This document shows positions 32,325-46,992 of a stretch of DNA of 64,000 nt, in pieces. Both the position numbers and the translations under genes were made by a program. Each line of letters starts with the position of its first letter. The first letter of the stretch is position 1. This DNA is from Klenkia sp. PcliD-1-E (GTDB taxonomy: Bacteria; Actinomycetota; Actinomycetes; Mycobacteriales; Geodermatophilaceae): NCBI RefSeq assembly GCF_024124375.1, contig NZ_JAMXRZ010000005.1, positions 1-64,000 of the forward strand. Direction: 5' to 3'. Under the pieces are notes generated by a model that searched no databases, had not been told where the DNA came from, and was given only the letters and a program-made list of their open reading frames with translations.

Positions 32325-32519
32325 TCAGTCCTCGACGGCCAGCGCGCTGACCGGACAGCTGCGCGCGGCCTCCTCCACCCGGGCCCGGTCGGACTCGGGG
32401 ATCTCGTCCCTCAGCAGCACGACGACGCCGTCGTCGTCGATGTCGTAGACGTCGGGTGCGCCGGTGATGCAGTTGCCGTATCCCTGGCAGGCCTCGTGGT
32501 CGGCGGTGAGCCGGGGCAT
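32325..32519 (-). CDS. [3Fe-4S] ferredoxin of the dioxygenase
   Basis: 64 residues. Cysteines are Cys11, Cys17 (CQGYGNC) and Cys55 (RSCPVSA), so the middle position that would carry a fourth ligand is Gly14. Three cysteines indicate a 3Fe-4S cluster, as in phthalate 3,4-dioxygenase PhtA3 and many actinobacterial P450 ferredoxins, unlike the Rieske ferredoxins of proteobacterial dioxygenases. It sits between the dihydrodiol dehydrogenase and its reductase. Ribosome site GGAGAGCACC before the ATG. Confidence 0.95.
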   Translation of the reverse strand: MPRLTADHEACQGYGNCITGAPDVYDIDDDGVVVLLRDEIPESDRARVEEAARSCPVSALAVED

Positions 32520-32545: not shown

Positions 32546-33355
32546 TCAGGAACGCTTGCGCGGGGCGGCGCCGAGGCCGATCCCGCCGTCGGGGTGCACC
32601 GAGCCGCCGGTGATGCCGCGGGCGCGGTCGGAGGCCAGGAACACGTAGCTCCAGGCGTGGTCGGCGGCGGTGAGCGCCACCTGCAGGGGCACCCGGGCAG
32701 CCAGCTCCTCCGCGCGCCCGGGGGTGTCACCCAGGCTGCGGCCGGCGGTGCCCAGGGTGGCCGGCCCGCGCAGGTCGGTGCCCAGCGTCCCGCCGGGGGC
32801 CACGGCGTTGACCCGGACCTCGGGAGCCAGGTCGTGGGCCAGCGCGGTGACCAGCCCGCGCACGGCGAACTTCGACGCCAGGTACAGCACGCCCCCGCGA
32901 CCGGGGTGGTAGGACGACGTCGACTCGGTCAGCAGGACCACCCCGTTGCCGGCGGCCTGCAGGTGCGGGAGCGCGGCCTGCACCGACCGGAGGTGGGACA
33001 GCACGTTGGTGTGGAAGACCTCGTCGAAGGCGGACTCGAGCAGGCCGGGGTCCAGGTCGACGACCGAGCGGTAGAAGTCGAAGATGCCGACGCAGTTGAC
33101 CAGCAGGTCCAGCCCGCCGAAGGCCTCCACCGCCGCGGCGACGGCGGCCTCGTTGGCCTCCTGCGAGGTCGCGTCGCCCGCCGTGACCGGGACGTCGGGT
33201 TGCTCCGCCCGCAGCGCAGCGCACTTGTCCTGGTCGCGTTCCAGGACGGCGACCCGGGCGCCCTCGGCGAGGAAGGCGTCGACGACCGCCCGGCCGATGC
33301 CGGACCCGGCGCCGACGACGAGCGCCCGCCGTCCCGCGAGCCACCCGGCGGTCAC
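32546..33355 (-). CDS. cis-Dihydrodiol dehydrogenase (SDR, BphB/HcaB/PhtB type)
   Basis: 269 residues. The cofactor motif is VVGAGSGIGRAVVDAF and the catalytic Tyr-x3-Lys lies in YLASKFAVRGLVTAL, preceded by VVLLTESTSSYHPGRGG. VNAVAPGGTLGTDLRGP is characteristic of dihydrodiol dehydrogenases. It should rearomatise the cis-dihydrodiol made by the dioxygenase, giving a catechol-type acid and NADH. The GTG start overlaps the small upstream gene by 4 bases. With the flanking genes it occupies the PhtB position of the operon. Confidence 0.92.
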   Translation of the reverse strand: MTAGWLAGRRALVVGAGSGIGRAVVDAFLAEGARVAVLERDQDKCAALRAEQPDVPVTAGDATSQEANEAAVAAAVEAFGGLDLLVNCVGIFDFYRSVVDLDPGLLESAFDEVFHTNVLSHLRSVQAALPHLQAAGNGVVLLTESTSSYHPGRGGVLYLASKFAVRGLVTALAHDLAPEVRVNAVAPGGTLGTDLRGPATLGTAGRSLGDTPGRAEELAARVPLQVALTAADHAWSYVFLASDRARGITGGSVHPDGGIGLGAAPRKRS

Positions 33356-33729
33356 TGGCTGCCGCCCTCGACCGCCTCGGGTCCGCCGCCCTCCCGGACC
33401 GAGCCGTCGGTGACCACACCGGCGCTCGCCTCGGGGATGAGCGGCCCGAACGGGTTGGCGATCATCGCCGAGAAGGTGGCGGTGCCCTGCCAGGTCAGCG
33501 CCTCGACCTCCAGGGGGTCCAGGGCGACCCACTGCCCGGACTTGGGCGACTCGACCAGCAGCCGGGACCCGTTGCGGGTGTCGACCCTCAGCACCCGGAC
33601 CTCGGCGAACTCGTTGGCGATGGTGATGGGCTCACCGCTGGCACCGGCGACCAGGGCGGCGTGCTCGGCCGCTGCGCGGCGGGCCGCGGCTGCGTCGACG
33701 TCCTCCCCCTCCCAGGACAGGCCGGTCAC
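33352..33729 (-). CDS. Small conserved protein of actinobacterial dioxygenase operons, 125 aa
   Basis: Core TIANEFAEVRVLRVDTRNGS, LLVESPKSGQWVALDPLEVE and ALTWQGTATFSAMIANP; the N-terminus is an Ala-rich helix and the C-terminus a Gly/Pro tail. No Cys or His pairs, no membrane segment. I recall similar short proteins between the dioxygenase beta subunit and the dihydrodiol dehydrogenase in actinobacterial clusters, sometimes labelled dihydrodiol dehydrogenase, which cannot be right for a protein this short. It overlaps both neighbours by 4 bases, so it is made in step with them. An assembly or regulatory role is possible but unsupported. Confidence 0.7.
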   Translation of the reverse strand: MTGLSWEGEDVDAAAARRAAAEHAALVAGASGEPITIANEFAEVRVLRVDTRNGSRLLVESPKSGQWVALDPLEVEALTWQGTATFSAMIANPFGPLIPEASAGVVTDGSVREGGGPEAVEGGSQ

Positions 33730-34304
33730 AGGAAGATCGCCAGGTTCTGCATCCGCATGACCGAGTCGTCGACCATGATCACCCTCCGGGCGAGCTGCCA
33801 GCCGTCGTCGACCCGGCGCAGCAGGTCCTCCCGGCCGGCGGACACGAACGACCCTTCCCGGACGTCACCGCGGTTGCGGAACAGCAGGGTCGCCGACTCC
33901 ACCACCAAGTGGTCGGGGTCGTCGGTGGCGAAGGTGCGGACGTTGGACAGGTGGTGCCGCAGCCGGGACGGCGGGTCCTCGGTCCAGGCGTGCTCGGTGA
34001 GGAAGCGGGCCACCCGGCGGGACAGGGAGTACTTGTCCTCGTCGAAGTGCGCCATGCCCCGCGCGGTGTCGTAGCCGGCGCCCAGCGCGGTCGTGACCCG
34101 CACCGGCATCAGGTAGTGGACGTCGTCGGTGATGAGCTCCAGCCAGTCCTCGTAGGCCTGCTCGTCGAGCAACCAGGCCTCGTCGACCAGCCAGTGGTGG
34201 GCCTGCAGGTGGCGGGGGTCGTCGAAGGGCAGGCTGCGCCCGGTGCGCTGCACGCGCGAGGCGTGCCGGCCGAGGGCGGACTGCTCGCTCAGGGCGCCGC
34301 TCAT
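33726..34304 (-). CDS. Aromatic-ring-hydroxylating dioxygenase, small (beta) subunit
   Basis: 192 residues of the dioxygenase beta-subunit (NTF2-like cone) family. Markers are HHWLVDEAWLLDEQAYEDWL, DDVHYLMPVRVTTA, SRLRHHLSNVRTFATDDPDH and the C-terminal MRMQNLAIFL. It forms an alpha3beta3 complex with the Rieske subunit encoded just upstream, whose stop it overlaps by 4 bases. Start ATG reading MSGALSEQSALG. No catalytic residues expected; it shapes the substrate cavity and oligomer. Confidence 0.95.
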   Translation of the reverse strand: MSGALSEQSALGRHASRVQRTGRSLPFDDPRHLQAHHWLVDEAWLLDEQAYEDWLELITDDVHYLMPVRVTTALGAGYDTARGMAHFDEDKYSLSRRVARFLTEHAWTEDPPSRLRHHLSNVRTFATDDPDHLVVESATLLFRNRGDVREGSFVSAGREDLLRRVDDGWQLARRVIMVDDSVMRMQNLAIFL

Positions 34305-35749
34305 GCCTGCGCCACCGCCTCGCCGGGCACCTCGACGTCCGAGGCCTGCGGGGAGGTACGGCCCTGGTCGTCCACGGCCCCGCTGCCCTGCGCGCCGACG
34401 GTGAGCGTGGCGGCCTGCACCGGGGGCTTCTCCAGGTCGTCGGCCCAGCGGTTGAGCAGTGCCCGCTGGTTGTGCTCGGAGTAACCGGTCCGCGCCTCGC
34501 CCGGGCCGTGGAAGGCGTCCGGACCCAGGGGCGGGGTGACCGGCTGGTCGTCCTCGAGGATGCCCATCCGGCTGTTGAGCAGCAGCCGCCGCGCCATCGA
34601 GCCGGCCGCGGTGTTGGTGAGGGAGACCCAGTTCTCCACGTCGTCCTGCTCGAACATCCCGGTCGAGCCGAAGCACATGAGGTAGGCCTTGTAGCTCAGC
34701 GCCTTGAACTCCTCGGGCGCCTGGGCGTCGACGGCGAACCAGGACAGCACCTCGGTCTCGTCCTCGCTGATGGGTTGCCACTGGCGGATGGAGATGAAGG
34801 GCAGCACGTCGTCGGACTCGCCCACCCGGGGCCAGTTGTGCACGAAGGAGAGGTTCGGGTAGACCGACGCGGCGCTGATCATGAAGCCGTCGTCGCCGAT
34901 GAGGCGCAGCTGCTCGTCGGAGAACTGCTCCTTCATCCGGTCGACCATCTCCTGCGGGTAACCCACGTACCGCAGCCGCTCGTCGAGGTCGCCCTCGGGC
35001 AGCTTGTACGTTGTGCCGCCCCCGGCACCGGCCCAGTAGGTGGCGCCGTCCTTGCGCTTCTCGGCCTTGGGCTCGCGGAACAGGCCGATCTCCACGACCG
35101 AGGTGTGCGTCTGCGGGGTGTGGTACATGTCGCCGGCGAAGTTCTCCGCGCCGATCTTCCAGTTCGCCTTAACCCTCCAGCGCTGCGGACCGCGCAGCTC
35201 GATGCCCGAGGCCGACTGCTTGGTGTAGTAGTCCAGGTAGAAGCGGAAGTCGCCGAGGAACTCCTCCAGCGGGGGCGCGTCCGGGTCCATGGACACGAAG
35301 ACCATCCCGTTGTAGATCGCCAGGTTCGGCGCCGGGAGCAGGCGCTGGCCCTTGCGCGCGAAGCCGGCCTCGCCGCCGTACGCGTCCTTGTGGAACGGCA
35401 GCCCGACGATGCGGCCGTCGTTGCGGTAGGACCAGCCGTGGTACGGGCAGCGGAAGTGGCTGGCGTTGCCGACCTCGGCGCGGCAGACCTGCATGCCGCG
35501 GTGCAGGCACATGTTGAAGTGCGCGCGGACCTCGCCCTGCTCGTCGCGGGTGACGATGAAGGAGTCCTCCAGCACCCGCCGGACGACGTAGTCACCGGGC
35601 TGGGCGATCTCGGACTCGTGGCCCACGAACACCCAGGCGCGGGAGAAGACGCGCTCCTTCTCCAGCTCGAAGACCTCCCGGTCGTTGTAGATGTGCGCCG
35701 GGATCATGCCGCGCCGCACGTCGGCCAGCACGGTGGTCTGATCGGTCAT
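34301..35749 (-). CDS. Aromatic-ring-hydroxylating dioxygenase, large (alpha, Rieske) subunit
   Basis: 482 residues, a little longer than the usual 440-460 because of a polar C-terminal tail of about 50 residues. The Rieske cluster ligands are Cys81 and His83 (MCLHRG) and Cys101 and His104 (RCPYHGW). The mononuclear iron site follows in AENFAGDMYHTPQTH: bridging Asp207, ligands His210 and His215. It adds both atoms of O2 to an aromatic acid to form a cis-dihydrodiol. Gene order matches phthalate 3,4-dioxygenase operons, so phthalate or a close analogue is the best substrate guess. A 17-bp palindrome lies 20 bases before the ATG. Confidence 0.95.
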   Translation of the reverse strand: MTDQTTVLADVRRGMIPAHIYNDREVFELEKERVFSRAWVFVGHESEIAQPGDYVVRRVLEDSFIVTRDEQGEVRAHFNMCLHRGMQVCRAEVGNASHFRCPYHGWSYRNDGRIVGLPFHKDAYGGEAGFARKGQRLLPAPNLAIYNGMVFVSMDPDAPPLEEFLGDFRFYLDYYTKQSASGIELRGPQRWRVKANWKIGAENFAGDMYHTPQTHTSVVEIGLFREPKAEKRKDGATYWAGAGGGTTYKLPEGDLDERLRYVGYPQEMVDRMKEQFSDEQLRLIGDDGFMISAASVYPNLSFVHNWPRVGESDDVLPFISIRQWQPISEDETEVLSWFAVDAQAPEEFKALSYKAYLMCFGSTGMFEQDDVENWVSLTNTAAGSMARRLLLNSRMGILEDDQPVTPPLGPDAFHGPGEARTGYSEHNQRALLNRWADDLEKPPVQAATLTVGAQGSGAVDDQGRTSPQASDVEVPGEAVAQA

Positions 35750-35768: not shown

Positions 35769-35785
35769 GTTCTGTCTGACAGAAC
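35769..35785. promoter_or_regulatory. Operator-like palindrome before the dioxygenase genes
   Basis: GTTCTGTCTGACAGAAC is a perfect inverted repeat with 7-bp arms around CTG. Written as half-sites it is TTCTG-N5-CAGAA. Adjacent on the far side is a second odd palindrome TCTCTAGTAGAGA after a CT-rich tract. Both lie in the only spacer (80 bases) inside the run from the aldehyde dehydrogenase to the alpha subunit, which suggests an internal regulated promoter. The IclR protein at 29568-30359 is the likely binder. Confidence 0.6.
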
Positions 35786-35829: not shown

Positions 35830-37296
35830 TCACTCCAGGACGACGGTGACCGCCTTGGTCTCGGTGTAGGAGAGGAGCTCGTCGACGGACTCCTCGCGTC
35901 CCACGCCGGAGGCCTTGACTCCCCCGAACGGCAGCCCCCAGTAGTGCCGGGAGGAGCCGTTGACCCACACGTAGCCGGCCTCCAGCGCGGCAGCCATCCG
36001 GTGCGCCCGGGTGACGTCGGAGGTGAAGACCCCGGCCGTGAGGCCGTACCCGGTCCGGTTGGCGATCGCCACGGCCTCGTCCTCGTCGCGGAAGGTGAGC
36101 ACCGACAGCACCGGGCCGAACACCTCCTCCACGGCAGTGGGGTTGTCCGCGGCCATCGGGCCCAGCACGGTCGGGGCGACGTACCAGCCCTCCTCGCCGA
36201 CGGTGTCCGGCCGCCCGCCGCCGACCAGCACCGGGGCCCCGGCGGCGGTGGCCGCCGCGATGGCCCGCATCGACTTCTCGTACTGGGCGCGGTCGACCAC
36301 CGGGCCCATCTGCGTGCCGGGCTCCAGCGGGTGACCGACCCGGATGGCCCGGACCTGCTCGACCACCGCGGCGAGCACCTCGTCGGCGACGGACTCGTGC
36401 AGCAGCAGCCGGCTGGTCGACCCGCAGGACTGCCCGGCCGTCGCCGTGAAGTTCATCCCGAACACCGCGGCGTCGGCTGCCCGCGCCAGGTCAGCGTCCG
36501 GCATGACGACCAGGGCGTTCTTCCCGCCGAGCTCCAGGCTGACGTGCTTCACCCCGTGCTCGGCGGCCTCCCGCTGGATCAGCCGGCCGGTCGGCTCGGC
36601 ACCGATGAACCCGATCCGTCGGATCAGCGGGTGGGCCACCAGCGCCGCACCGGTCGTCGCGCCCCGGCCGCTGACCACGCCGCACAGGTCCGGTCCGAAC
36701 ACGTCGGCGGCCAGTTCGGCCATCCGCAGGGCCGACAGCGGGGTCTGGTCCGGCGCCTTGAGGACGACGGCGTTGCCCGCCACCAGCGGGGCGGCCACCT
36801 TGCCGGCGGCGAAGAACAGCGGGTGGTTGAACGGGACGATCCGGCCCACCACCCCGTAGGGCTCCTGGGTGGAGTAGTGCAGGTTGCCCGACAGCGGGTA
36901 GGTCGACCCGCCCAGGGACAGCGCGTGGTCCGCCATGATCTCCAGCAGCACGGCCGCGGCCCCCACGTCGGCCTGCATGACCGGCAGCGGGAACCCGGCA
37001 TCGAGCGCATCGAGGGTGGCCAACTCGTCGGTGTGCTCGCGGAGGAGGGCTGCGAACTCCCGCACCTTCCCGGCCCGGGCCCGGGCCGGCAGCCGCGCCC
37101 AGGCCCGCTGGGCCTCCCCGGCCGCGCGGACGACGGTGTCCACCTCCGCGGCCGAGCAGTCGGGGGCGTCGGTCAGCCGCCGGCCCGTCGTCGGGTCCTC
37201 GACGTCGTACCGGGCGGCCGTCGGCACCGCCCGTCCGCCGAGCAGGATGTCCAGGCGACGGTCCAGCACGGTGCTGGCTGCCTGCAGATCGGTCAC
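35830..37296 (-). CDS. Aldehyde dehydrogenase (NAD(P)+)
   Basis: 488 residues. The catalytic Cys291 is in [13 protein letters not shown], the general base Glu255 in [10 protein letters not shown], the NAD-loop in [18 protein letters not shown], and the C-terminal [19 protein letters not shown] is standard. Directly upstream of a phthalate-type dioxygenase, a carboxybenzaldehyde or similar aromatic aldehyde is a sensible substrate: oxidation of 2-carboxybenzaldehyde would give phthalate. It could also take the aldehyde made by the divergent ThDP decarboxylase-like enzyme. GTG start with GGAGAACC ribosome site. Confidence 0.93.
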
Positions 37297-37326
37297 GGTT
37301 CTCCTCGGTCGTCGGGTGCGGGTAGG

Positions 37327-38100
37327 TCAGCGGTGCAGGACGCCGCCGTTGACGCTCACCGTCTGGCCGGTGACCCACCGGCTGTCGTCGGAGAGCAGGA
37401 AGGCGACCACGCCGACCATGTCCGCAGGTTCGGCATCCCGGTGCAGCGCCTGCGCGGCCTGCATCGCGGTTCGCTGCTCCGGGGAGACGGTGGAGCGGGG
37501 CACCTCGGTGTAGGTCGGTCCCGGCGACAGGGAGTTGACCCGGATCGAGTCGCCGCCCAGCTCGTGCGCCATGGCGTGGGTCATGCCCGCCACCCCGCCC
37601 TTGCTGGCGATGTAGTGCAGGTAGCCCGGCCGGCCCAGCCAGACGGCGTCGGAGCCCACGTTGACCACGCTCGCACCGTGGCCGGTCCGGGCTCCCTCGC
37701 GCAGGGCGGGCAGCAGCGCGCTGGTGACCAGCCAGGGACCACGCAGGTTGACCGCCATGAGCCGGTCCCACTCCTCGGGCGGGATCTCCCAGAACGGGCG
37801 CATCGTGATCGTGGAGAAGATCGCAGCGTTGTTCACCAGCCCGTGGACTGCGCCGAACCTCGCCGTCACGGTTTCGGCGAAGGCGCCCACCGCCGCCGGG
37901 TCGCCGACGTCGAGGGGCACGGAGGTCGCCGCACCCCCGGTCGCGTCCAGGTCCGCGACGACCGCGGCGGCCTTCTCGGCGTCCAGGTCGGCCACCACGA
38001 CCGTGCCGCCGTCGGCGACGATGCGCCGGGCGTAGGCCCGGCCCAGGCCCTGCGCACCCCCGGTGACGACGACGACCCGGCCCGCCAGCGGGCCGGTCAC
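37327..38100 (-). CDS. SDR-family dehydrogenase of the carboxylase module
   Basis: 257 residues, classical SDR. The cofactor motif is VVTGGAQGLGRAYARRI with VVADLDAE (Asp after beta-2, so NAD preferred). The active site is VVNVGSDAVWLGRPGYLHYIASKG (Tyr-x3-Lys). The C-terminus is the usual WVTGQTVSVNGG. It overlaps the zinc-ribbon gene by 4 bases. In acetophenone pathways an SDR (1-phenylethanol dehydrogenase) feeds the ketone to the carboxylase, and this arrangement suggests a similar secondary-alcohol oxidation. The substrate is not known. Confidence 0.88.
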   Translation of the reverse strand: MTGPLAGRVVVVTGGAQGLGRAYARRIVADGGTVVVADLDAEKAAAVVADLDATGGAATSVPLDVGDPAAVGAFAETVTARFGAVHGLVNNAAIFSTITMRPFWEIPPEEWDRLMAVNLRGPWLVTSALLPALREGARTGHGASVVNVGSDAVWLGRPGYLHYIASKGGVAGMTHAMAHELGGDSIRVNSLSPGPTYTEVPRSTVSPEQRTAMQAAQALHRDAEPADMVGVVAFLLSDDSRWVTGQTVSVNGGVLHR

Positions 38101-38387
38101 CGGGCCACCACCGAGCGGGTGCGGCCCGACGGCTCGTCACCGGGGACGATCTCGGACTGCAGGAGGGTCAGGCACCCGGGGCAGAAGGTCTGCCGGAGGA
38201 CGACGGGGCGGTCGGCGAAGTGCGCGGAGCCTGCCCGGACGGACGGTCCGGCGGTCCGCGGGTCGGACTCGCGGACGCAGGCGTCGCGCAGCGGCTGCTG
38301 TGCCACCCCGAGGGCGGCGTCGCAGTGCCGACAGCTCACCACCCCGTCGTCGCCCTGGACCAGGTTCTCGTCGATGTGCACGCTCAC
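38097..38387 (-). CDS. Zinc-ribbon small subunit of an acetone/acetophenone carboxylase-like enzyme
   Basis: 96 residues. Two Cys pairs, SCRHCDAAL near residue 20 and TFCPGCLTLL near residue 69, form a probable zinc ribbon. A long linker between them carries SVRAGSAHFADRPVVLRQ. This resembles the gamma or small zinc-binding subunit encoded with acetone and acetophenone carboxylases (PF08882-like), though shorter than AcxC of about 165 residues. It overlaps both HyuB and the SDR by 4 bases, so it is made with them. AGGAGGTCCC precedes its GTG. Family assignment is tentative. Confidence 0.68.
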   Translation of the reverse strand: MSVHIDENLVQGDDGVVSCRHCDAALGVAQQPLRDACVRESDPRTAGPSVRAGSAHFADRPVVLRQTFCPGCLTLLQSEIVPGDEPSGRTRSVVAR

Positions 38388-40372
38388 GCCGGGACCTCCT
38401 CGGCCTCGAGGCCCGCCCGGCTGCGCCGCAGCGCTGCACGTCGGGTCGTGGTGGCGCCCTCGTCGACGGCGCCCTGGTCGTCGACGAGGACCCCGTACAC
38501 CTCGTGCGCACCGGCCACGGACACCTTGTGCGCTGCCACGTCCGCGGCCACCGCGGCCGGGTCGCGGCGCAGGGGATCCCCGTAGCCACCCCCGCCCTGC
38601 CAGTGCGTGTAGTAGACGTCGGCGGCGCCGAGGTCCGTCTCGTGGTGGGTGGGCACCAGGTCGGTGGTCCCGGTGAGCTCGTCGAGGGACGACGGGATGC
38701 GCCCGGAGGCGAACCGTGCGTGCACGTCGGTGTCGCGCACCAGGACGTCGTGCTGGGTCCCGGCTGGCAGCCCGCCGGAGAGCCCGGCGGCCAGCGGCAG
38801 GGCCTTGCCCGGGGCCGAGACCACCAGGTGCACGCCGCCGAGCGGGCTGTCGTACGGGATGAAGCAGCTGGAGGCACCGACCCCGCCGCGGAACCGGCCC
38901 GGCCCGCCGGAGTCGGGCTCCTCGCGCCGCCACAGGTAGAGCATCGGGAAGGCGAACTCGTTCATCTCGACGTCGGCCACCCGGCCCATCGGGATGCAGG
39001 CCAGCCCGCCGGTGTCCACCCCGTCGGAGTCCGACCGCGCCCCCAGCCCACCGGCCATGGAGTCGCAGAGCATGGTCACGAAGCCACCGCCGCGCTGGTC
39101 GACCCCGGCGAGCAGCGCGAAGTCCCACGTGCCGCAGCAGACGCTCATCAGGCGCTTGCGGTGCTCGGGGTGGGTGTCGAGCATGCCGGCGAGGCACTCG
39201 GTCGCGACGTTGGTGGTGGCCCAGCCCGAGGCAACCGACGCCTTGCCGATGCCGGCCGGGAAGGTGCAGTTGTTGATGGTCCCGGGCTCGCTGATGACCT
39301 CGATGCAGCGGTAGATGCCACCGCACGCCCACGGGATGTCCCCGCACACCATGGTCAGCAGCACCGGCATGATGCCCCCGCGCAACCCGGCGAAGGTGCA
39401 GTTGATCAGCCCGTCGACCTGCGGGTCGGTGCCGGTGAAGTCGAAGACCAGCCGGTCGTCGGTCTTGGTCAGAGTCAGCGCGATCCGGTAGATGCCCCGG
39501 TCGCCGGAGCGCGCGGAGTCCTGGTGGGCCACCGCGCTCCACGAGCCGTCGGGGATCTCCCGGAGCTTGGCCCGCAGCCGCTGCTCGGCGTCGTCCATGG
39601 TCCGGCGCATCACGGCTTTGACGACGTCCGCGCCGTACTTGTCGCACAGCGCCCGCAACCGCTCGTGCGCAACGTTGTTGGCGCCGATCTTGGCCCGGAG
39701 GTCGAGCGCGACCAGCTTCGGGACCCGTGACCGGCGCAGCCAGACGTCCTCGATGTCCTGCCGGATCTCCCCGCCCTCCACGATCTTCACCGGCGGCGTG
39801 GGCAGGGACTCCCAGAAGACGTCGGTCGCGCCCACCGACCAGCTGCCGGGCGAGACGCCCCCGAGGTCGACCTGGTGGGCCACCGCGCCGGTCCAGCAGA
39901 ACAGTTCGCCGTCGACGAACAGCGGCGCGAACAGGCTGGTGTCGTTCTGGTGCAGCCCACCGCCGACCCAGGGGTCGTTGCACAGGAACATGTCGCCGGG
40001 GGCGATGCCCGGCCTGGCGCACCGGTTGCGCAGCGTCCAGTTGGCAGCCATGTCCAGCGACGCGGCCAGCTCGGTGTTGTAGAGACCGACCTGGACCACG
40101 TCGCCGACCTCGTCCATGATCGCGGCGTCGAAGTCGTTGCAGTCGGTGACCACGACCGACCCGGACATGCGCTTGAGGGCCTCGCCCATCTCCTCGGTGA
40201 TCGAGGTGAGGCGGTGCCGGACGACCTCGTAGGTCAGCGGGTCCAGGGCCTCGACCACCGACCTGTCGACGTCGTGCAGCCGGACCGAGTCGCCCACGAC
40301 GCGGCGGGTCTCCTCCGGGCTGGTGGGGGCGTTGGCGAACTTCTCGGAACCGGCGACGGGGATGACGGGCAC
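38384..40372 (-). CDS. HyuB-type subunit (hydantoinase B / acetone carboxylase alpha-like)
   Basis: 662 residues of the hydantoinase B/oxoprolinase C-terminal family. Markers are VVRHRLTSITEEMGEALKRM, SPGDMF-like PGIAPGDMFLCNDPWVGGGL, GLINCTFAGLRGG and the C-terminal THWQGGGGYGDPLRRDP. In carboxylases this subunit binds the substrate and metal and completes the ATP-dependent carboxylation; in hydantoinases it opens the ring. The zinc-ribbon partner downstream favours a ketone carboxylase-like complex. GTG start with GAGAGGACAG; 13 bases after HyuA. Confidence 0.9.
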   Translation of the reverse strand: MPVIPVAGSEKFANAPTSPEETRRVVGDSVRLHDVDRSVVEALDPLTYEVVRHRLTSITEEMGEALKRMSGSVVVTDCNDFDAAIMDEVGDVVQVGLYNTELAASLDMAANWTLRNRCARPGIAPGDMFLCNDPWVGGGLHQNDTSLFAPLFVDGELFCWTGAVAHQVDLGGVSPGSWSVGATDVFWESLPTPPVKIVEGGEIRQDIEDVWLRRSRVPKLVALDLRAKIGANNVAHERLRALCDKYGADVVKAVMRRTMDDAEQRLRAKLREIPDGSWSAVAHQDSARSGDRGIYRIALTLTKTDDRLVFDFTGTDPQVDGLINCTFAGLRGGIMPVLLTMVCGDIPWACGGIYRCIEVISEPGTINNCTFPAGIGKASVASGWATTNVATECLAGMLDTHPEHRKRLMSVCCGTWDFALLAGVDQRGGGFVTMLCDSMAGGLGARSDSDGVDTGGLACIPMGRVADVEMNEFAFPMLYLWRREEPDSGGPGRFRGGVGASSCFIPYDSPLGGVHLVVSAPGKALPLAAGLSGGLPAGTQHDVLVRDTDVHARFASGRIPSSLDELTGTTDLVPTHHETDLGAADVYYTHWQGGGGYGDPLRRDPAAVAADVAAHKVSVAGAHEVYGVLVDDQGAVDEGATTTRRAALRRSRAGLEAEEVPA

Positions 40373-40385
40373 GTCAGCTGTCCTC

Positions 40386-42485
40386 TCAGGCCTGGGTGTA
40401 GCGGATGACGAGGTTGCCGAGCCGGTCGACCCGGCCGACGCAGCCCTCGGGCAGGGCGACGGTGGTGGTGGGCGCCTCGACGACGGCGGGGCCCTTGATC
40501 TCGTGGCCCTCCGCGAGGTCCCGGTAGTCGTGGATGTCGGCGTCCTGCCAGCCACGCCGCGGATCGAGGAACACCCGGCGGCTGGTGACCGGACGGGCAT
40601 CGCCGTCCGCAGCACCGACCGGGGTGAGCCGGGGCCGGATCGGGAGCACGCCGACCGCCTGGGTGCGGTAGGTGATCAGCTGCAGGCCGGCCTCGGCGAA
40701 GCCGGACCCCTTGCCGTAGAGCTGTTCGTACCGGTCGCCGAAGGCGTCACCGACGCCGCCGAGGCCGGCGGCGTCGAGGTCGCCGACCGGGACCGGCGTC
40801 GCCACCTCGGCCAGCTGCATCGTGTAGCGCAGGTCGGCCTCGGAGCGGTACTCCACGTCGGCGAAGCGCAGCTGCTGAGCAGCGAGCCGACCGTCCAGCT
40901 CGGTGCGCAGCTGCTGGAAGGCGCCGTTGAAATCGGCCGGGTCGGGCGGGAAGTTCGTCGGGGACGAGAGCTCCGCGGTCAGCACGATGTCCGACGCCGC
41001 GAGCCCGTAGGCGGAGAACACCGCGGCGGTCGGGCCGAGGGGGACGACGACCTCGCCGATCTCCAGGTCGGCCGCGTAGCTGGCGCAGTGCATGGGCCCG
41101 GCCCCGCCGAAGGCGTAGAGCACGAAGTCGCGCGGGTCCTGCCCCGACGTCACGACCACCTTGCGGACCAGGTCGGCGGTCTGGGCGTTCTGGATGGCGT
41201 AGACCGCGGCGCACGCCTCGTCGACGGTCAGGCCGAGCGGTTCGGCGATCCTCGCCCGGACGGCGTCCGCGGCCAGCTCGACCGAGAGCTGCTTGCGGCC
41301 GCCGAGGAAGTTGTCCGGGTTGACGATCCCGAGCAGGAGGTCGACGTCGGTGACCGTCGGATCCGTCCCGCCCTCGCCGTAGCAGGCGGGCCCGGGGCGT
41401 GCCCCCGCGCTGCGCGGGCCGACGTGCAGGTTGCCCCCGGCGTCGACCCAGGCGATCGCGCCCCCGCCGGCACCGATGGTGTGCACGTCGACCATCGGCA
41501 CGTTCACCTGGTACTGGTTCAGCACCGTGCTCGTGGTGGAGACCGCCTCGCCGTCCACCACCAGGCCGGCCAGGAACGTCGTCCCACCCATGTCGGTGGA
41601 GATCACGTTCCGGTGCCCGAGCTCGTCGGCCAGCCGGGTGCAGCCGACGACCCCGCCGGTGAGCACCGAGCCGATGGTGGTGATGGCCCGGGACGGGGCG
41701 TCGGCGGAGTCGACGCACCCGCCCGAGCCCTGCATCACGAGCAGGGAACCGCCGAACCCGCGCTCACGGAGCTCGGCCTCCAGCGGGCGCAGGTAGTCCC
41801 GCAGCCTCGGCCCGACCTGGGTGTTCATGATCGTCGTGGCGCTGCGCGCGTACTCCCTGATACGCGGGCTCACGTCGCTGGACAGCGCCACGTACAGACC
41901 TGGGGCCTCCTCGGCCACGATCTCCCCGACGCGCTGCTCGTGCGCCGGGTTGCGGAAGCTCCACAGCAGGCTGACCGCGATGGCCTCCGCACCGGCCGCG
42001 ACGAGTTCGCGCACGGCGGTACGTGTCCCCTCCTCGTCCAGCTCCACGACCACCGCACCCTTGTGGTCGACCCGCTCGTCGATCTCCCGGACCAGCTGCG
42101 GAGGCACGAGCGGGCGCGGCTTGTCGGTGCGGACCATGTCCTGCACCCGGTCCGAGCCCAGTCCGGCGTAGCGGCCCTCGAGGTTCATGATCGCGATGGA
42201 GTCGCCGTGGCCGCGGGTGGTGAGGAACCCGACCGTCGCGACGTCCCCGGTGACCAGCGCATTCAGCGTCGAGGTCGTCCCGTGGACGATGTAGTGGGTG
42301 TCCGTGAGCAACTCGCCCGTGCTCGTGCCGAGGGCGTCGGCCAACTCGTCGAGCACGGTCAGGAAGCCCTGGGCGAAGTCCGGCGGGGTGGACGGGGTCT
42401 TCGTCCCCGCCACCCGCCCCTCGCCATCCGCGACGAACGCGTCGGTGAAGGTGCCGCCGATGTCGATGCCGATCACGTAGGCCAT
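40386..42485 (-). CDS. HyuA-type ATPase subunit (hydantoinase A / acetone carboxylase beta-like)
   Basis: 699 residues of the actin-fold HyuA/oxoprolinase family. The phosphate-binding loop is GIDIGGTFTDAF at residues 5-16; IVHGTTSTLNALVTGD, VISTDMGGTTFLAGLV and TIGAGGGAIAWVDAGG are the further nucleotide-site motifs. It phosphorylates the enol or amide of the substrate at ATP cost. It is followed by HyuB and the zinc-ribbon protein, and preceded by a permease across a hairpin-rich spacer, so transporter and enzyme probably handle the same compound. The substrate may be an aryl ketone, a hydantoin or a lactam. Confidence 0.92.
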   Translation of the reverse strand: MAYVIGIDIGGTFTDAFVADGEGRVAGTKTPSTPPDFAQGFLTVLDELADALGTSTGELLTDTHYIVHGTTSTLNALVTGDVATVGFLTTRGHGDSIAIMNLEGRYAGLGSDRVQDMVRTDKPRPLVPPQLVREIDERVDHKGAVVVELDEEGTRTAVRELVAAGAEAIAVSLLWSFRNPAHEQRVGEIVAEEAPGLYVALSSDVSPRIREYARSATTIMNTQVGPRLRDYLRPLEAELRERGFGGSLLVMQGSGGCVDSADAPSRAITTIGSVLTGGVVGCTRLADELGHRNVISTDMGGTTFLAGLVVDGEAVSTTSTVLNQYQVNVPMVDVHTIGAGGGAIAWVDAGGNLHVGPRSAGARPGPACYGEGGTDPTVTDVDLLLGIVNPDNFLGGRKQLSVELAADAVRARIAEPLGLTVDEACAAVYAIQNAQTADLVRKVVVTSGQDPRDFVLYAFGGAGPMHCASYAADLEIGEVVVPLGPTAAVFSAYGLAASDIVLTAELSSPTNFPPDPADFNGAFQQLRTELDGRLAAQQLRFADVEYRSEADLRYTMQLAEVATPVPVGDLDAAGLGGVGDAFGDRYEQLYGKGSGFAEAGLQLITYRTQAVGVLPIRPRLTPVGAADGDARPVTSRRVFLDPRRGWQDADIHDYRDLAEGHEIKGPAVVEAPTTTVALPEGCVGRVDRLGNLVIRYTQA

Positions 42486-42546
42486 GTCGTCTCCCGGAGG
42501 CGTGGCGACCTTCGCCCGTGGGCGACCGGTCTGTGAGGTGGACCAC

Positions 42547-42611
42547 CAGCAGAGCAGGAGGAAGCTCTGCTGTCCAGCAGCTTGTTCCTGTGAGCAGAGA
42601 ACTAGCTGCTG
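42547..42611. repeat. Cluster of overlapping inverted repeats between permease and HyuA genes
   Basis: Three competing stems occur. CAGCAGAGC (42547-42555) pairs with GCTCTGCTG (42564-42572) around an AGGAGGAA loop; CTGCTG (42567-42572) pairs with CAGCAG (42575-42580); CAGCAGCT near 42575 pairs with AGCTGCTG at the end of the permease gene (42604-42611). GTTCCTGTGAGCAGAGAAC at 42584-42602 is a further imperfect palindrome. The arrangement could be a terminator, an attenuator or an mRNA-processing site that separates permease and enzyme expression. Confidence 0.5.
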
Positions 42612-43975
42612 GGCAGGATGAAGACGAGCCAGGTGATCGCCGGGGCCGTGACGACCATGGCCATGCCCCAGGCGAGCATCGTGCGGAACAGCGGACCCCG
42701 GTCGGCCTCGGGTGCGTTGGCGAGCGTCAGCGCGCCGACCGAGGAGAACGGCGTGGAGTCCACGACCGTGGCCGACACGGCGAGTGCGATCACCATGGCG
42801 GTGACCCCGACCTCGCCCTGGACGAGGAAGGGCACCGCCAGCGGGATCAGCACGCCCAGCAACCCGGCCGAGGAGGCGAAGGCCGAGGTGATGGCACCCA
42901 CCAGGCAGAGCAGGAAGGCCGTCAGCAGCGGGTTGCCCAGCCCGGCGATGCCGTTCCCGACCACGTCGATGGTCCCGTAGCGCTGCAGGGCACCCACGAA
43001 CGTGACCACACCGCAGATCAGCAGGACGACGGACCAGACGATCCGCCGGTCGGCCTGCTCGAAACGGCTCGGGAAGAGCAGGTGAAGCAGGGCGGCGGCG
43101 ACGAGGGCGAGGAACCCGATCTCCAGGTCGAAGACCAGGGCGCCGATCGCGACGCCCAGGATGACGACCAGGGTGATGATCTGGTCCAGCCGTAGCGGGG
43201 TCTTCACCGGGGCCACGTGCGGGGCGCGGGTGGTGGTGCGCGCCCCGCCGGCCGCGGTCTCACCGTCCGCGGTCTCGTCGGCACCGACACCGGCGACCAC
43301 CGGGTCCTCGACGGCCGGCCGGGTGCGGGCCTGCAGGTCACCGGCCGAGGCGACGCGGTCCCGACCCTCCCGGATCAGGGCGCGGCCACCGAACACCAGA
43401 TAGATGACCACGGCCAGACCGACGTTGTAAGCCGCGTTGCCGAAGAACAGCTCGGCCGCGGACACCTGCAGACCGTTGGCCTCGGCCACCTGCCGGACGA
43501 TGATCGCCAGGCCGTTCAGCGGCGAGAAGTTCCCCAGGCAGGACCCGTGCATGACCATCAGCGCGGCCATCCGGCGGTCGACGCCGTAGCGCTCGCCCAG
43601 CCGCAGGCACAGCGGGGCCAGCATGGCGACACCGGCCGGGCCGAGGGCGCCGGCCAGGGTGGGTACCGCGGAGAACACGAAGATCAGCCACGGCACCAGG
43701 GCCGGACGATCACCCAGCAGACTGATGGCCCGGTCCACGAGCCACTCCAGGGTGCCGTTGACCGCCGCGAGCCCGAACAGGTAGGTGACGCCGACCAGGA
43801 GGACGAACAGGTCGGGCGGGAACCCGGCCAGCAGTTCGTCGACGGTCTCGTTCGCGACGAGCGTCCCGATGAAGAAGGTGGCGATCAGCGCCAGCGCCCC
43901 GATGTTGATCGGTCGGAGCGTGCCGACCACGAACACCAGGACGAGCGCCACGACACCGATGACGTGGATGGACAC
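42602..43975 (-). CDS. SLC13/MatC-like anion permease
   Basis: 457 residues, 11-12 membrane helices in two inverted halves, with a central loop of about 50 hydrophilic residues (RTRPAVEDPVVAGVGADET onward). Each half has a re-entrant motif: HGSCLGNFSPLNGLAIIV in the first and TVVDSTPFSSVGALTLANA in the second, as in SLC13/MatC dicarboxylate carriers. It probably imports the aromatic or other organic acid degraded by the downstream genes. The GTG start shares a 151-base divergent promoter with the ThDP enzyme and has GGAGACCCC before it. Confidence 0.87.
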   Translation of the reverse strand: MSIHVIGVVALVLVFVVGTLRPINIGALALIATFFIGTLVANETVDELLAGFPPDLFVLLVGVTYLFGLAAVNGTLEWLVDRAISLLGDRPALVPWLIFVFSAVPTLAGALGPAGVAMLAPLCLRLGERYGVDRRMAALMVMHGSCLGNFSPLNGLAIIVRQVAEANGLQVSAAELFFGNAAYNVGLAVVIYLVFGGRALIREGRDRVASAGDLQARTRPAVEDPVVAGVGADETADGETAAGGARTTTRAPHVAPVKTPLRLDQIITLVVILGVAIGALVFDLEIGFLALVAAALLHLLFPSRFEQADRRIVWSVVLLICGVVTFVGALQRYGTIDVVGNGIAGLGNPLLTAFLLCLVGAITSAFASSAGLLGVLIPLAVPFLVQGEVGVTAMVIALAVSATVVDSTPFSSVGALTLANAPEADRGPLFRTMLAWGMAMVVTAPAITWLVFILPSS

Positions 43976-44073: not shown

Positions 44074-44126
44074 GCATAGTCACCCGGGAGGTGTCAACCG
44101 TCACAACGGATCCGCCCGGAGGCCCC

Positions 44127-45800
44127 ATGGGAACGAACCCACCCGTTCGCACCGGTAGCGACCTGGTCGTGGAGTGCCTGACCGCCGAGGGGGTCGACCT
44201 GGTCGCCGGCGTCCCCGGCACCACCGTCATGGACCTGATCGACAGCCTGGCCAGGCAGGACGCCATCCGGTTCGTGCACACCCGGCACGAGCAGGTGGCC
44301 GGGTTCCTGGCCGACGGCCGGTCGAGGGCCGGGCAGCTGGGCGTGGCCCTGGTCTCCCGCGGGCCCGGCGCGGCGAACGCCGCCATCGCGGTGCACAACG
44401 CCTACGACGAGTCGGTGCCGCTGCTGCTGCTGGTCGGGCAGGTCCCCGGGTCCATCACGGAACGCCGCTCCTTCGAGGAGATGGACGTCGTCTCGACGTT
44501 CGCGCCGATGAGCAAGTGGGTGGTCGAGGTCCACCGGGCCGACCGCATCCCCGAGCTCCTCCAGCGAGCCGTCCGCACCGCCGTCACCGGGCGGCCCGGC
44601 CCGGTCGTGGTCTCCCTCCCCCTCGACGTCCTCCAGGCCGAGGTCGCAGCCGACGTCCAGCCGGCGCGCCGGGTCCGGGCGCACCCGCCGGCACCCGCGC
44701 CGACCGCGGTGCAGGACGCGGTCGCGCTGCTGTCCGCCGCGCAGCGGCCGGTGCTGGTCGTCGGCGGGGGCGCCACCGGCCGCACGGCCGAGCTGACCCG
44801 GCTGGCCGACCGGCTGGCCGCGCCGGTGATCACCACCTGGTTGCGCCAGTCGTTGGTCTCCCACGACCACCCGGGCTTCCTGGGCGCCCTCGGCTACGGC
44901 GCGCACGACGTCACCGAGCAGACCGTCCAGGAGGCCGACGTGCTGCTCGCGGTCGGGTGCCGGTTCTCCGAGTTCAGCACCAAGCGGTGGACGCTGGTGG
45001 ACCCGGCGACCCGCATCGTCCACGTCGACGTCGACGCCACCGAGCTCGGCCGCGTGCACCTGCCCGAGGTGGGCATGGTCGCCGACGCGGGTCTGGCGGC
45101 CACGGCCCTCGCCGATGCGCTGCCACCCCCCTCGCAGGCCAGGACGGATCGGCGGGACGAGCTGCGGCAGCGCTACCTGGCCGCGACGTCGTTGGACTCA
45201 CCGGCACTGGCCGACGACGACCCGGCCGGCAAGGTCAGCAGCACGGCCCTGGTCCGCGCGCTGCAGGAGCTCGCCGACACCCCGGGGCACCTGCTGGTGC
45301 AGGACGCGCCGAGCTTCGGCCCGTGGAGCCACCGCTACCTCCGGCTGCCCCGCGCGGGCAGCTTCGCCGGGTCCGCCGGCGGGGCGATGGCCTGGGGTTT
45401 CCCGGCCGGGCTGGGCATGGCGCTGGCCCGCCCGGACCTCCGGGTGGTGACCGTCAGCGGCGACGGCAGTTTCTGGATGGTCGCCCAGGACCTCGAGACC
45501 GCGGTGCGCGAGCGCATCCCCACCGTGAACGTCGTCGTCAACAACGACGCCTACGGCAACACCCGCGACCGGCAGCGCTCCGCGCACGGCGGCCGCTACC
45601 TGGGGGTCTTCTACGGCAACCCCGACTTCGCGGAGTTCGCCCGGTCGCTGGGGGCGTTCGGCGCCCGGGCGACCACCGACGAGGAGGTGGGCCCGGCCCT
45701 GCGGGCGGCGCTGGCCCAGGACCTCCCCGCGGTCGTCGAGGTGGTGCAGGACCAGATGTACGGCCTGCCGCCCGGCCTGCTCCCCCCGGCCGCCCGGTGA
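44127..45800 (+). CDS. ThDP-dependent enzyme (benzoylformate decarboxylase / acetolactate synthase-like)
   Basis: 557 residues in the three-domain ThDP fold. The catalytic Glu is in VHTRHEQVAGFLADG, the central FAD/NAD-like domain in VQDAVALLSAAQRPVLVVGG, and the cofactor motif is VTVSGDGSFWMVAQDLE to VVVNNDAYGN (GDG...NN). It could decarboxylate an aryl 2-oxo acid to an aldehyde, which the aldehyde dehydrogenase would then oxidise. Acetolactate synthase activity is less likely because no small regulatory subunit is present. ATG chosen for CCCGGAGGCC ribosome site; a GTG 36 bases upstream is possible. Confidence 0.88.
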   Translation: MGTNPPVRTGSDLVVECLTAEGVDLVAGVPGTTVMDLIDSLARQDAIRFVHTRHEQVAGFLADGRSRAGQLGVALVSRGPGAANAAIAVHNAYDESVPLLLLVGQVPGSITERRSFEEMDVVSTFAPMSKWVVEVHRADRIPELLQRAVRTAVTGRPGPVVVSLPLDVLQAEVAADVQPARRVRAHPPAPAPTAVQDAVALLSAAQRPVLVVGGGATGRTAELTRLADRLAAPVITTWLRQSLVSHDHPGFLGALGYGAHDVTEQTVQEADVLLAVGCRFSEFSTKRWTLVDPATRIVHVDVDATELGRVHLPEVGMVADAGLAATALADALPPPSQARTDRRDELRQRYLAATSLDSPALADDDPAGKVSSTALVRALQELADTPGHLLVQDAPSFGPWSHRYLRLPRAGSFAGSAGGAMAWGFPAGLGMALARPDLRVVTVSGDGSFWMVAQDLETAVRERIPTVNVVVNNDAYGNTRDRQRSAHGGRYLGVFYGNPDFAEFARSLGAFGARATTDEEVGPALRAALAQDLPAVVEVVQDQMYGLPPGLLPPAAR

Positions 45801-46015
45801 GCACCCCGCCGAAGGGCCGACCGCGCTGGCTGACGGCGCTGGTGGTGTGGGCCGGCCTGTTCCCGTTCTCCATGGTCTACGGCCTGTGGGCCGCCCCTGC
45901 ACTGGCCCACCTGCCGGTGGTCGTCCAGTCCCTGGCCAGCTCGGCGGTGCTCGTCCCGCTGGCCGTCTTCGTCGGCATCCCCGCCGTCGACGCCCTGCTC
46001 CGGAGGCTGCCGTGA
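45797..46015 (+). CDS. Small two-helix membrane protein, 72 aa
   Basis: Two hydrophobic helices: RWLTALVVWAGLFPFSMVYG and LASSAVLVPLAVFVGIPAV, ending in a basic ALLRRLP. The pattern resembles the C-terminal membrane tail found on some antibiotic-biosynthesis-monooxygenase-domain proteins, here as a free-standing protein. It overlaps the ThDP gene and the next decarboxylase-like gene by 4 bases each, so it is part of the same translation-coupled unit. It may tether or assist transport; nothing in sequence proves it. Confidence 0.75.
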   Translation: MSTPPKGRPRWLTALVVWAGLFPFSMVYGLWAAPALAHLPVVVQSLASSAVLVPLAVFVGIPAVDALLRRLP

Positions 46016-46992
46016 CCCGCCCGCACCTGACCATGGCCGTGCAGGCCTACGACCGGTTCCGCCCGCTGTTCGACGGTCGCGTGCAGGTCGCGGGCGTCGA
46101 CCTCAACTGCCTGGACCTGCCGGTCGAGGAGACCTTCCACCGGATGGTCGCCCACCAGGAGTTCGAGGTCGCGGAGCTGTCGATGTCGACCTACGTGCTG
46201 ACCCTCTCGCGCGGGGCGCCGTTCGTCGCCGTCCCGGTGTTCCCGTCGCGGGCCTTCCGGCACAGCGCCGTCTACGTCCCCACGGACTCCCCGGTCACCG
46301 ACCCGGCTCAGCTGGCCGGTGGGCTGATCGGGGTGCCCGAGTACCAGATCACCGCGGCCGTCTGGGTGCGAGGGATCCTCGCCGAGCACCACGGCTTGCC
46401 CGTGTCCGCGGTGCGCTACCGGTCCGGGGGGCTCGACACCCCGGGACGGGTGGAGAAGGTCCCGCTGGACCTGCCCGAGGACGTCGAGGTCCAGCCCATC
46501 GGCCCCGGGGCGACGCTGTCGCGGATGCTGGCCGACGGCCAGCTCGACGCCGTGCACAGCGCCCGCAACCCCGGCACGCTCGGCTCGGGGGTCCGCCGGT
46601 TGTTCGCCGACCCGCGCGCGGTCGAGGCCGACTACTTCAGGCGCACCGGGGTCTTCCCGATCATGCACGTGCTGGTGATCCGGCGGGACGTGCACGAGCG
46701 GTACCGGTGGCTGGCCCAGGAGCTGGTGAAGGCCTGCGCCGAAGCCAAGCGGGTCGGCGTGGCCGGCATCGGCGAGACGGCTGCCCTGCCCTCGGCCCTG
46801 CCCTGGTCGTGGGCCGAGGCCGAGCGGACGGTCGAGGTGCTGGGCGAGGACTGGTGGCCCTACGGGGTGGAGCGCAACCGCACGACCCTCGACACGTTCC
46901 TCCGCTACTCCCACGAGCAGGGGTTGGCGGCCCGCAGGTACGAGCCCGAGGAGCTGTTCGCCCCCGAGTCCCTGTCCTCGGTCGTGGTGTAG
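46012..46992 (+). CDS. 4,5-Dihydroxyphthalate decarboxylase homologue (periplasmic-binding-like fold)
   Basis: 326 residues. The start LTMAVQAYDRFRPLFDGRVQ, the VETFHRMV / FEVAELSMSTYVL block, VPVFPSRAFRHSAVYV and GVPEYQITAAVWVRGIL match what I know of 4,5-dihydroxyphthalate decarboxylases (Pht5) closely. Those enzymes convert 4,5-dihydroxyphthalate to protocatechuate. No signal peptide, consistent with an enzyme rather than a transport-binding protein. It is the last gene of the plus-strand operon and is followed by a terminator hairpin. Many family members are uncharacterised, so the exact substrate is open. Confidence 0.82.
   Translation: MTRPHLTMAVQAYDRFRPLFDGRVQVAGVDLNCLDLPVEETFHRMVAHQEFEVAELSMSTYVLTLSRGAPFVAVPVFPSRAFRHSAVYVPTDSPVTDPAQLAGGLIGVPEYQITAAVWVRGILAEHHGLPVSAVRYRSGGLDTPGRVEKVPLDLPEDVEVQPIGPGATLSRMLADGQLDAVHSARNPGTLGSGVRRLFADPRAVEADYFRRTGVFPIMHVLVIRRDVHERYRWLAQELVKACAEAKRVGVAGIGETAALPSALPWSWAEAERTVEVLGEDWWPYGVERNRTTLDTFLRYSHEQGLAARRYEPEELFAPESLSSVVV

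Follow-up and report, generated by a model that had tools for sequence, protein, structure and literature searches.

A four-gene cassette with a predicted ketone-carboxylase-type gamma subunit in a phthalate catabolic cluster of Klenkia sp. PcliD-1-E

Only a handful of enzymes have been characterised in the superfamily that includes acetophenone carboxylase (Apc), acetone carboxylase (Acx), caprolactamase (CapAB), 5-oxoprolinase and N-methylhydantoinase, and published criteria leave the function of its distant members open. The pairing of a short-chain dehydrogenase/reductase (SDR) with a ketone carboxylase is the known logic of 2-propanol and acetone metabolism. A gamma subunit is tied to the carboxylases by published criteria, and the zinc site of Apc gamma consists of C22, C25, C75 and C78 (PMC5214803). 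Here we describe a locus from Klenkia sp. PcliD-1-E (contig NZ_JAMXRZ010000005.1, positions 1 to 64,000; this 64,000-nucleotide stretch is called the window) in which genes for HyuA, HyuB, a small zinc protein and an SDR lie within a phthalate (pht) cluster. As the initial annotation had listed them, the genes for a permease, HyuA, HyuB, a 96-residue zinc protein, an SDR, an aldehyde dehydrogenase (ALDH), Rieske alpha and Rieske beta follow one another on the minus strand, and all of these reading frames are open. HyuB and the zinc protein gene overlap by 4 bases, as do the zinc protein and SDR genes, overlaps that predict translational coupling; an 80-base spacer separates the ALDH gene from Rieske alpha. 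The first six genes are as follows.

42602..43975, minus strand: MatC_N/CitMHS-type anion permease of the pht cluster (Pfam; homologues beside pht genes)
40386..42485, minus strand: HyuA, putative alpha subunit, 699 residues, ASKHA ATPase (Pfam Hydantoinase_A, Hydant_A_N and Hydant_A_C; clade-specific SVL/Leu305/Ala343 pocket; tree)
38384..40372, minus strand: HyuB, putative beta subunit, 662 residues (Hydantoinase_B, E=7e-126; intact Asp-His-Asp-His metal tetrad; beta tree)
38097..38387, minus strand: putative gamma subunit (zinc protein), 96 residues (C19-x2-C22 and C69-x2-C72; PDB 5l9w_C, PF08882, hhalign, Foldseek)
37327..38100, minus strand: SDR dehydrogenase, fourth gene of the cassette (adh_short_C2; 4-base overlap with gamma)
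35830..37296, minus strand: ALDH, likely a PhdK-like 2-carboxybenzaldehyde dehydrogenase (identity and synteny with ALDHs of phd and pht clusters)

By sequence profile and structural model, the zinc protein is a genuine relative of the gamma subunit of acetone and acetophenone carboxylases. Its only sequence match in the PDB was the Apc small subunit 5l9w_C (E=0.027), and its PF08882 score of 15.4 bits lies below the cut-off of 21. Since Pfam alone misses the protein at standard thresholds, we turned to profile, fold and fusion evidence. An 11-row profile compared with Apc-type gammas by hhalign gave 99.1% (95.6% without the haloarchaeal rows), and all four cysteines (C19, C22, C69 and C72) were kept, with both pairs aligned. 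A model built from three rows reached a moderate predicted local distance difference test score (pLDDT) of 69, and a Foldseek search with it of 350,542 PDB chains returned as its top four 5l9w_C, 5svc_C, 5m45_C and 5svb_C, all of them Apc or Acx gammas; the E-values were weak, and it is the ranking that tells. Finally, the same domain is fused to the C terminus of HyuB in other, related actinobacteria. The suggestion that HyuAB has a ketone-carboxylase gamma as its zinc-ribbon partner is thus borne out, and the contrary outcome, an unrelated zinc-ribbon gene, did not appear. The HyuB-gamma fusions, of ∼720 to 780 residues with two C-terminal CxxC pairs, were seen in several lineages (L094:10102-12426, L045:9945-12236, L039, L040 and L101-L104), and some long HyuB proteins are without one or both CxxC pairs (L038, L100, L105 and L124-L128).

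HyuA and HyuB carry the features by which the superfamily is recognised, namely the ASKHA ATP motifs in alpha (DIGGTFTD, DMGGT and GARPGP, all intact) and the intact DHDH metal tetrad in beta. The two subunits are similar to caprolactamase, N-methylhydantoinase, Apc and Acx to about the same degree, and both score well short of every equivalog cut-off. The profile scores of HyuA, led by CapA (497 bits) and including ApcC (413 bits), were all far below equivalog cut-offs, and those of the NCBIfam families ApcC and ApcD were not reached (413/1500 and 209/1500 bits). In the beta tree, the gamma-bearing proteins (the window protein, its fused relatives, the haloarchaeal proteins and Apc) were split from the gamma-less enzymes with support of 100/99, and Apc stood apart from the window clade with the same support. 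The alpha tree resolved separate groups for the ATP-dependent hydantoinases, oxoprolinases and lactamases (Hyd; 100/99), Apc (95/92) and the window clade plus haloarchaea (96/95). The window alpha did not group with Acx there, and a union of the window clade with Apc and Acx to the exclusion of the haloarchaea was marginally rejected (approximately unbiased test, p-AU 0.037). The locus has only alpha, beta and gamma genes and no alpha-prime.

Taken together, these data place the trio, as far as sequence can tell, in a third gamma-bearing clade, distinct from Apc, Acx and Hyd. The trio did not cluster with hydantoinases or oxoprolinases in the trees, though for alpha a union with Hyd was not rejected (p-AU 0.076), and the presence of gamma together with the split in the beta tree indicates that HyuAB is not an ordinary hydantoinase. 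The proposed resemblance to ketone carboxylases held in part: gamma homology and a place on the gamma-bearing side of the beta tree speak for it, but the trio is not an Apc, which would call for alpha-prime and epsilon, nor an Acx. We also considered an N-methylhydantoin/creatinine route, as isochorismatase-type genes lie near the cassette in relatives, and rejected it, since gamma is present and pht plasmids that have no HyuAB carry such genes too.

The clade is further marked by a change of the active-site pocket that is uniform in all 17 of its 17 members (SGP to SVL, Asp to Leu and Ser to Ala). Among the other 40 alpha rows, the Gly-Pro of SGP is kept in every one, the Asp after DxGGTxF in 37 and the Ser of GAGGGS in 38, where the window clade has Val-Leu (V274-L275 in the window HyuA), Leu (Leu305) and Ala (Ala343), respectively. 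Pro285 of Apc alpha lines the proposed acetophenone pocket (PMC5214803), and Asp302 of CapA, the counterpart of the replaced Asp, has been noted near the substrate region (PMC8453981). A uniform change at these positions suggests that the enzyme has a substrate or an activation step that differs from those of both the characterised carboxylases and the characterised hydrolases.

We compared the surroundings of the locus in relatives. In Klenkia soli and K. taihuensis the gene order is kept (4,5-dihydroxyphthalate decarboxylase homologue, thiamine diphosphate [ThDP] enzyme, permease, HyuA, HyuB, zinc protein, SDR, ALDH, dioxygenase genes and second class II aldolase), with proteins 81 to 97% identical and the zinc protein 92% and 86% identical, respectively. 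The order from HyuA through pht is also kept in another genus (L090), and the arrangement is therefore not due to chance. What is conserved as a unit is the four-gene cassette HyuA-HyuB-gamma-SDR, inserted into the pht cluster. The SDR accompanies HyuAB-gamma in L090, L091, L092, L003 and L004. In genome G350 the permease, ALDH and phtAa genes of the pht cluster are direct neighbours, in this order, and HyuA-HyuB-gamma-SDR is found on a different contig; in G378 phtAa directly follows the permease. The permease adjoins ALDH or phtAa without the cassette in L111 and L119, and homologues of the permease (73%) and the ALDH accompany phtAa without HyuAB in Microbacterium sediminis (L053). Because both adjoin pht genes where the cassette is absent, the permease and the ALDH belong to the pht cluster, and their inclusion in the HyuAB module by the initial annotation did not hold up. 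For the same reason we dropped the idea that the SDR and the ALDH form a pair of steps in one pathway.

The proposed link between the HyuAB module and the phthalate dioxygenase is both physical and phyletic. Cassette and phtAa share a contig in G401, where, as in Klenkia, ALDH and pht come after the cassette, and in G387, where the two are ∼8 kb apart in a different order. HyuA at 85% identity or more was present in 7 of 115 Geodermatophilaceae genomes and phtAa in 16, and all 7 were among the 16 (hypergeometric probability 2.6e-7 over three genera, uncorrected for relatedness).

The link is probably regulatory as well, through a palindrome common to the promoters, whose sites in the window are the following.

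35769..35785, unstranded: perfect 17-bp palindrome GTTCTGTCTGACAGAAC, candidate IclR operator in the phtAa promoter, within the 80-base spacer before phtAa
44049..44063, unstranded: a further copy of this operator motif, in the promoter between the divergent ThDP and permease genes
42565..42579, unstranded: degenerate operator site with 1 mismatch, 79 bases upstream of HyuA

The motif YTCTG-N5-CAGAR occurs exactly twice in the 64 kb, at the phtAa promoter and the divergent ThDP/permease promoter, and in relatives it is again present in the promoters of phtAa or the permease. Two exact matches in 64 kb are few, and sites with 1 mismatch in the window were not above chance (4 found versus 3.4 expected), so the case for an operator rests on the positions and on the relatives. 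When a matrix built only from phtAa and permease promoters was applied to HyuA promoters, a site was found 79 to 112 bases before HyuA in 6 of 7 cassette loci (window fractions 0.0025 to 0.027), including the unlinked copy of G350, and in none of the HyuA promoters of 5 non-cassette relatives. An IclR-like palindrome is thus common to the promoters of pht, the permease and HyuA, and the two halves probably have separate starts under common IclR-type control. Separate, unlinked expression had been named as an outcome that would break the link; separate promoters are indeed probable, yet all carry the same operator-like palindrome.

The dioxygenase half is, judged by homology and gene order, a true phthalate 3,4-dioxygenase (pht/pad) operon, with PhtAa and PhtC homology at equivalog level and a conserved order. 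PhtAa shares ∼80% identity with phthalate dioxygenases encoded on plasmids of Rhodococcus and Arthrobacter, A. keyseri pRE1 among them (79.6%), and its PDB match is the phthalate 3,4-dioxygenase 9jp5 (E=1.8e-250). The class II aldolase exceeds the PhtC cut-off (385.6 versus 200 bits), and a protocatechuate 3,4-dioxygenase is encoded elsewhere in the same genome. The ALDH is 60 to 69% identical to ALDHs of phthalate and polycyclic aromatic hydrocarbon clusters, among them one adjoining phtAa in M. sediminis (64%) and one of P. phenanthrenivorans Sphe3 (60%) placed after a cupin and a DHDPS-family gene in phdI-phdJ-phdK order. This synteny points to 2-carboxybenzaldehyde as its substrate, and the ALDH is likely a PhdK-like 2-carboxybenzaldehyde dehydrogenase. 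The genes of this half and its flanks are listed below.

34301..35749, minus strand: phthalate 3,4-dioxygenase alpha, PhtAa (79.6% to A. keyseri pRE1; PDB 9jp5)
33726..34304, minus strand: phthalate dioxygenase beta, PhtAb (Ring_hydroxyl_B)
33352..33729, minus strand: conserved 125-residue protein with no assigned family, present in most homologous pht operons
32546..33355, minus strand: cis-dihydrodiol dehydrogenase, PhtB role, an SDR (PRK06200, 362.8 bits, cut-off 330)
32325..32519, minus strand: ferredoxin, PhtAc (Fer4_15)
31097..32323, minus strand: ferredoxin reductase, PhtAd (Pyr_redox_2)
30384..31100, minus strand: 3,4-dihydroxyphthalate decarboxylase, PhtC (NF053537)
29568..30359, minus strand: PhtR-like IclR regulator (IclR_C and HTH_IclR)
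28832..29524, minus strand: second class II aldolase-type, decarboxylase-like protein (Aldolase_II; below the PhtC cut-off)
44091..45800, plus strand: ThDP-dependent, acetolactate-synthase-like enzyme, divergent from the permease (TPP_enzyme N/M/C; 53% homologue in the G724 cluster)
46012..46992, plus strand: 4,5-dihydroxyphthalate decarboxylase homologue (PDB 9jp7, E=1e-76)

The 125-residue protein, between dioxygenase beta and the dihydrodiol dehydrogenase, had no Pfam or NCBIfam match and is 67 to 90% conserved in most of the pht operons compared. The 4,5-dihydroxyphthalate decarboxylase homologue sits in a cluster with a 3,4-type dioxygenase and has relatives at 42 to 71% in the G051, G334 and G350 clusters. 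We do not claim a phthalonate route through the ThDP enzyme and the ALDH, as the former is acetolactate-synthase-like without a specific match. Also in the window are an FAD protein of the phenol-2-monooxygenase family (26871-28715; PRK08294, 908 bits, cut-off 560) that has 66 to 67% homologues near pht in G387 and G334 and whose gene is divergent from a second IclR gene, and a 623-residue DUF222-domain protein (13800-15671).

A recurring theme of the wider clade is an alcohol dehydrogenase with alpha-beta-gamma in aromatic or ketone contexts. Relatives at 61 to 73% in G334, G051 and G724 (another class) come with a zinc-type alcohol dehydrogenase and an ALDH, and Apc-like genes are found in the same genomes. 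These Apc-like genes are 58 to 63% identical to one another and run gamma-alpha-beta (L098:161-5617, L051:3165-7794 and L133:296-4722); those on the G334 contig also include alpha-prime. G724 also has a ThDP enzyme (53%), a PhtC that exceeds the cut-off (304.9 bits) and genes of the allantoinase-like and isochorismatase-like kinds. PhtC lies there beside ALDH and ThDP genes (L133/L134) in a genome without phtAa, which suggests that dihydroxyphthalate is made by another route. Next to the fused sub-clade lie genes for a CoA ligase, a thiolase and an SDR (L094), and other relatives have a CoA ligase and an acetoacetate decarboxylase family gene (L037) or 2,3-butanediol and acetoin-type dehydrogenases (L036) nearby. 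Allantoinase/PuuE-like genes of the polysaccharide deacetylase family and/or isochorismatase-type genes (N-carbamoylsarcosine amidohydrolase-like) occur in several actinobacterial phthalate clusters (L041:16382-17038; L042:7502-8362 and 12037-12693; L098:10035-11503; L110:16472-18024; L111:3055-4610); taken together, they resemble an imide route from phthalimide through phthalamate to phthalate.

Literature searches of an open library returned no report linking a hydantoinase or an acetone carboxylase with phthalate, and the place of the cassette in the pht cluster suggests that phthalate breakdown is entered by a route not yet described. We hypothesize that HyuA-HyuB-gamma is a diverged complex of the ATP-dependent ketone carboxylase type, on the carboxylase side but forming a separate clade, which together with the SDR feeds phthalate catabolism; our confidence in this is evenly balanced. 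The SDR would oxidise a secondary alcohol to the ketone. HyuA would bind ATP and phosphorylate the carbonyl (as the enol) and/or bicarbonate in its remodelled pocket, and the activated species would pass to the HyuB metal site, where carboxylation would form the C-C bond, with gamma as a structural zinc subunit clamping HyuB. The product would be cut to phthalate, which would enter the phthalate node with the PhdK-like ALDH and the pht operon, and PhtAaAbAcAd, the dihydrodiol dehydrogenase and PhtC would convert it through 3,4-dihydroxyphthalate to protocatechuate. Subunit homologies, ATP, metal and zinc motifs, the pocket change, clade position, pht co-occurrence and the operator motif were computed; complex formation, carboxylation and the role of the SDR are what we infer. 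Our guess at the substrate, ortho-carboxylated aryl ketones (2-acylbenzoates from 3-alkylphthalide-type compounds), comes only from the need for an ortho-carboxylate and a ketone.

Several observations weigh against such a carboxylase. There is no CoA ligase, thiolase or beta-keto acid hydrolase beside the cassette, which leaves the fate of the beta-keto acid without an enzyme, the cleaving enzyme being the missing piece. An alpha tree with the window clade joined to Hyd was not rejected (p-AU 0.076), and as uncharacterised lineages close to the Hyd branch likewise have gamma domains, the presence of gamma is no proof of carboxylation. The pocket departs from every characterised carboxylase and hydrolase compared, and a new reaction is possible; an AlphaFold model of HyuA from three near-identical rows had a pLDDT of 32.5 and was not used. 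It is conceivable, though we hold this only tentatively, that the SVL/Leu/Ala clade is a third functional branch of the superfamily, with a substrate unlike those of the characterised members (e.g., ortho-carboxylated aryl ketones), and that it forms with the SDR an undescribed aerobic pathway into phthalate.

Alternatively, the trio could use ATP to hydrolyse a benzo-fused lactam or imide (e.g., isoindolinone or an N-substituted phthalimide), yielding a 2-substituted benzoate that the SDR and ALDH would take to phthalate, with gamma retained only structurally. The lead of CapA over ApcC in the HyuA scores, all of them far below cut-off, fits this, as does the dependence of caprolactamase itself on ATP and bicarbonate (PMC8453981), and the imide-type genes in phthalate clusters of relatives have the look of such a route. 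However, that route already has genes of its own, characterised lactamases and hydantoinases have no gamma and lie apart in the beta tree, and the CapA-type Asp302 is Leu throughout the clade; we therefore consider a hydrolase unlikely. Quite improbable, in our view, is a role for the cassette in using an aliphatic ketone or secondary alcohol set free by cleavage of phthalate esters (of the 2-propanol/acetone, 2-butanol/butanone or cyclohexanone type), its link to pht arising since both products come from one ester. In its favour, the SDR and ketone carboxylase pairing fits 2-propanol/acetone logic, and the neighbours of haloarchaeal relatives include dehydrogenases of the 2,3-butanediol and acetoin type or a gene of the acetoacetate decarboxylase family. 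Against it, the cluster genes examined included no recognisable ester hydrolase, and other clade members lie among aromatic genes (meta-cleavage and Apc-like genes in L097/L098 and L133/L134; an FAD aromatic hydroxylase adjoining HyuA in L045). Least probable of all is an accident of neighbourhood, in which a cassette of unrelated function landed in the pht cluster of one lineage: the separate contigs in G350 and the wider-clade members without phtAa would allow it, but the 7/7 co-occurrence across three genera, the differing linked arrangements in G401 and G387 and the operator-like motif in HyuA promoters argue otherwise.

The locus thus brings together a clade recognisable by a diagnostic active-site change, a gamma subunit that is cut down to 96 residues or fused with beta, and a close connection with an aerobic pathway that is well understood. 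That connection makes the substrate searchable among compounds ending in phthalate. Should the complex prove to be a carboxylase, it would form C-C bonds aerobically without biotin and would reveal an unsuspected source of phthalate in soil.

Compared with known systems, the pht half is closest to the operon of A. keyseri pRE1, with the same order of alpha, beta, small protein, ferredoxin, reductase, PhtC and IclR and a PhtAa 80% identical; however, the dihydrodiol dehydrogenase of pRE1 is an aldo/keto reductase, whereas that of the window is an SDR, and pRE1 has no HyuAB cassette. CapAB, 5-oxoprolinase and N-methylhydantoinase share the alpha and beta folds and the ATP and metal motifs but are without gamma, stand apart from the window protein in the beta tree (100/99) and differ at CapA Asp302, a Leu in the window HyuA. 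Acx of Xanthobacter (AcxABC; PDB 5SVB and 5M45) likewise has three subunits, with gamma 3′ of beta in the published order, but its beta (776 versus 662 residues) and gamma (∼167 versus 96) are longer and alpha similarity is weak (312 bits). Apc of Aromatoleum aromaticum (PDB 5L9W) shares alpha, beta and gamma homologues, the ATP motifs, the Asp-His-Asp-His tetrad, the four gamma cysteines, the alpha ERxDxxG fingerprint (ERVDHKG) and linkage to an alcohol dehydrogenase; in contrast to ApcABCDE, the cassette has no alpha-prime, epsilon or CoA ligase, runs alpha-beta-gamma, falls in a separate clade, has a gamma of 96 rather than 129 residues, and carries SVL for SGP and Leu for Asp315. Sister to the window proteins in the trees are the uncharacterised haloarchaeal HyuAB loci with an 'acetone carboxylase subunit gamma' (Natronosalvus, Haladaptatus and Haloterrigena), which have the same alpha-beta-gamma trio at 39 to 44% identity but keep the SGP...Asp active-site residues and have other neighbours.

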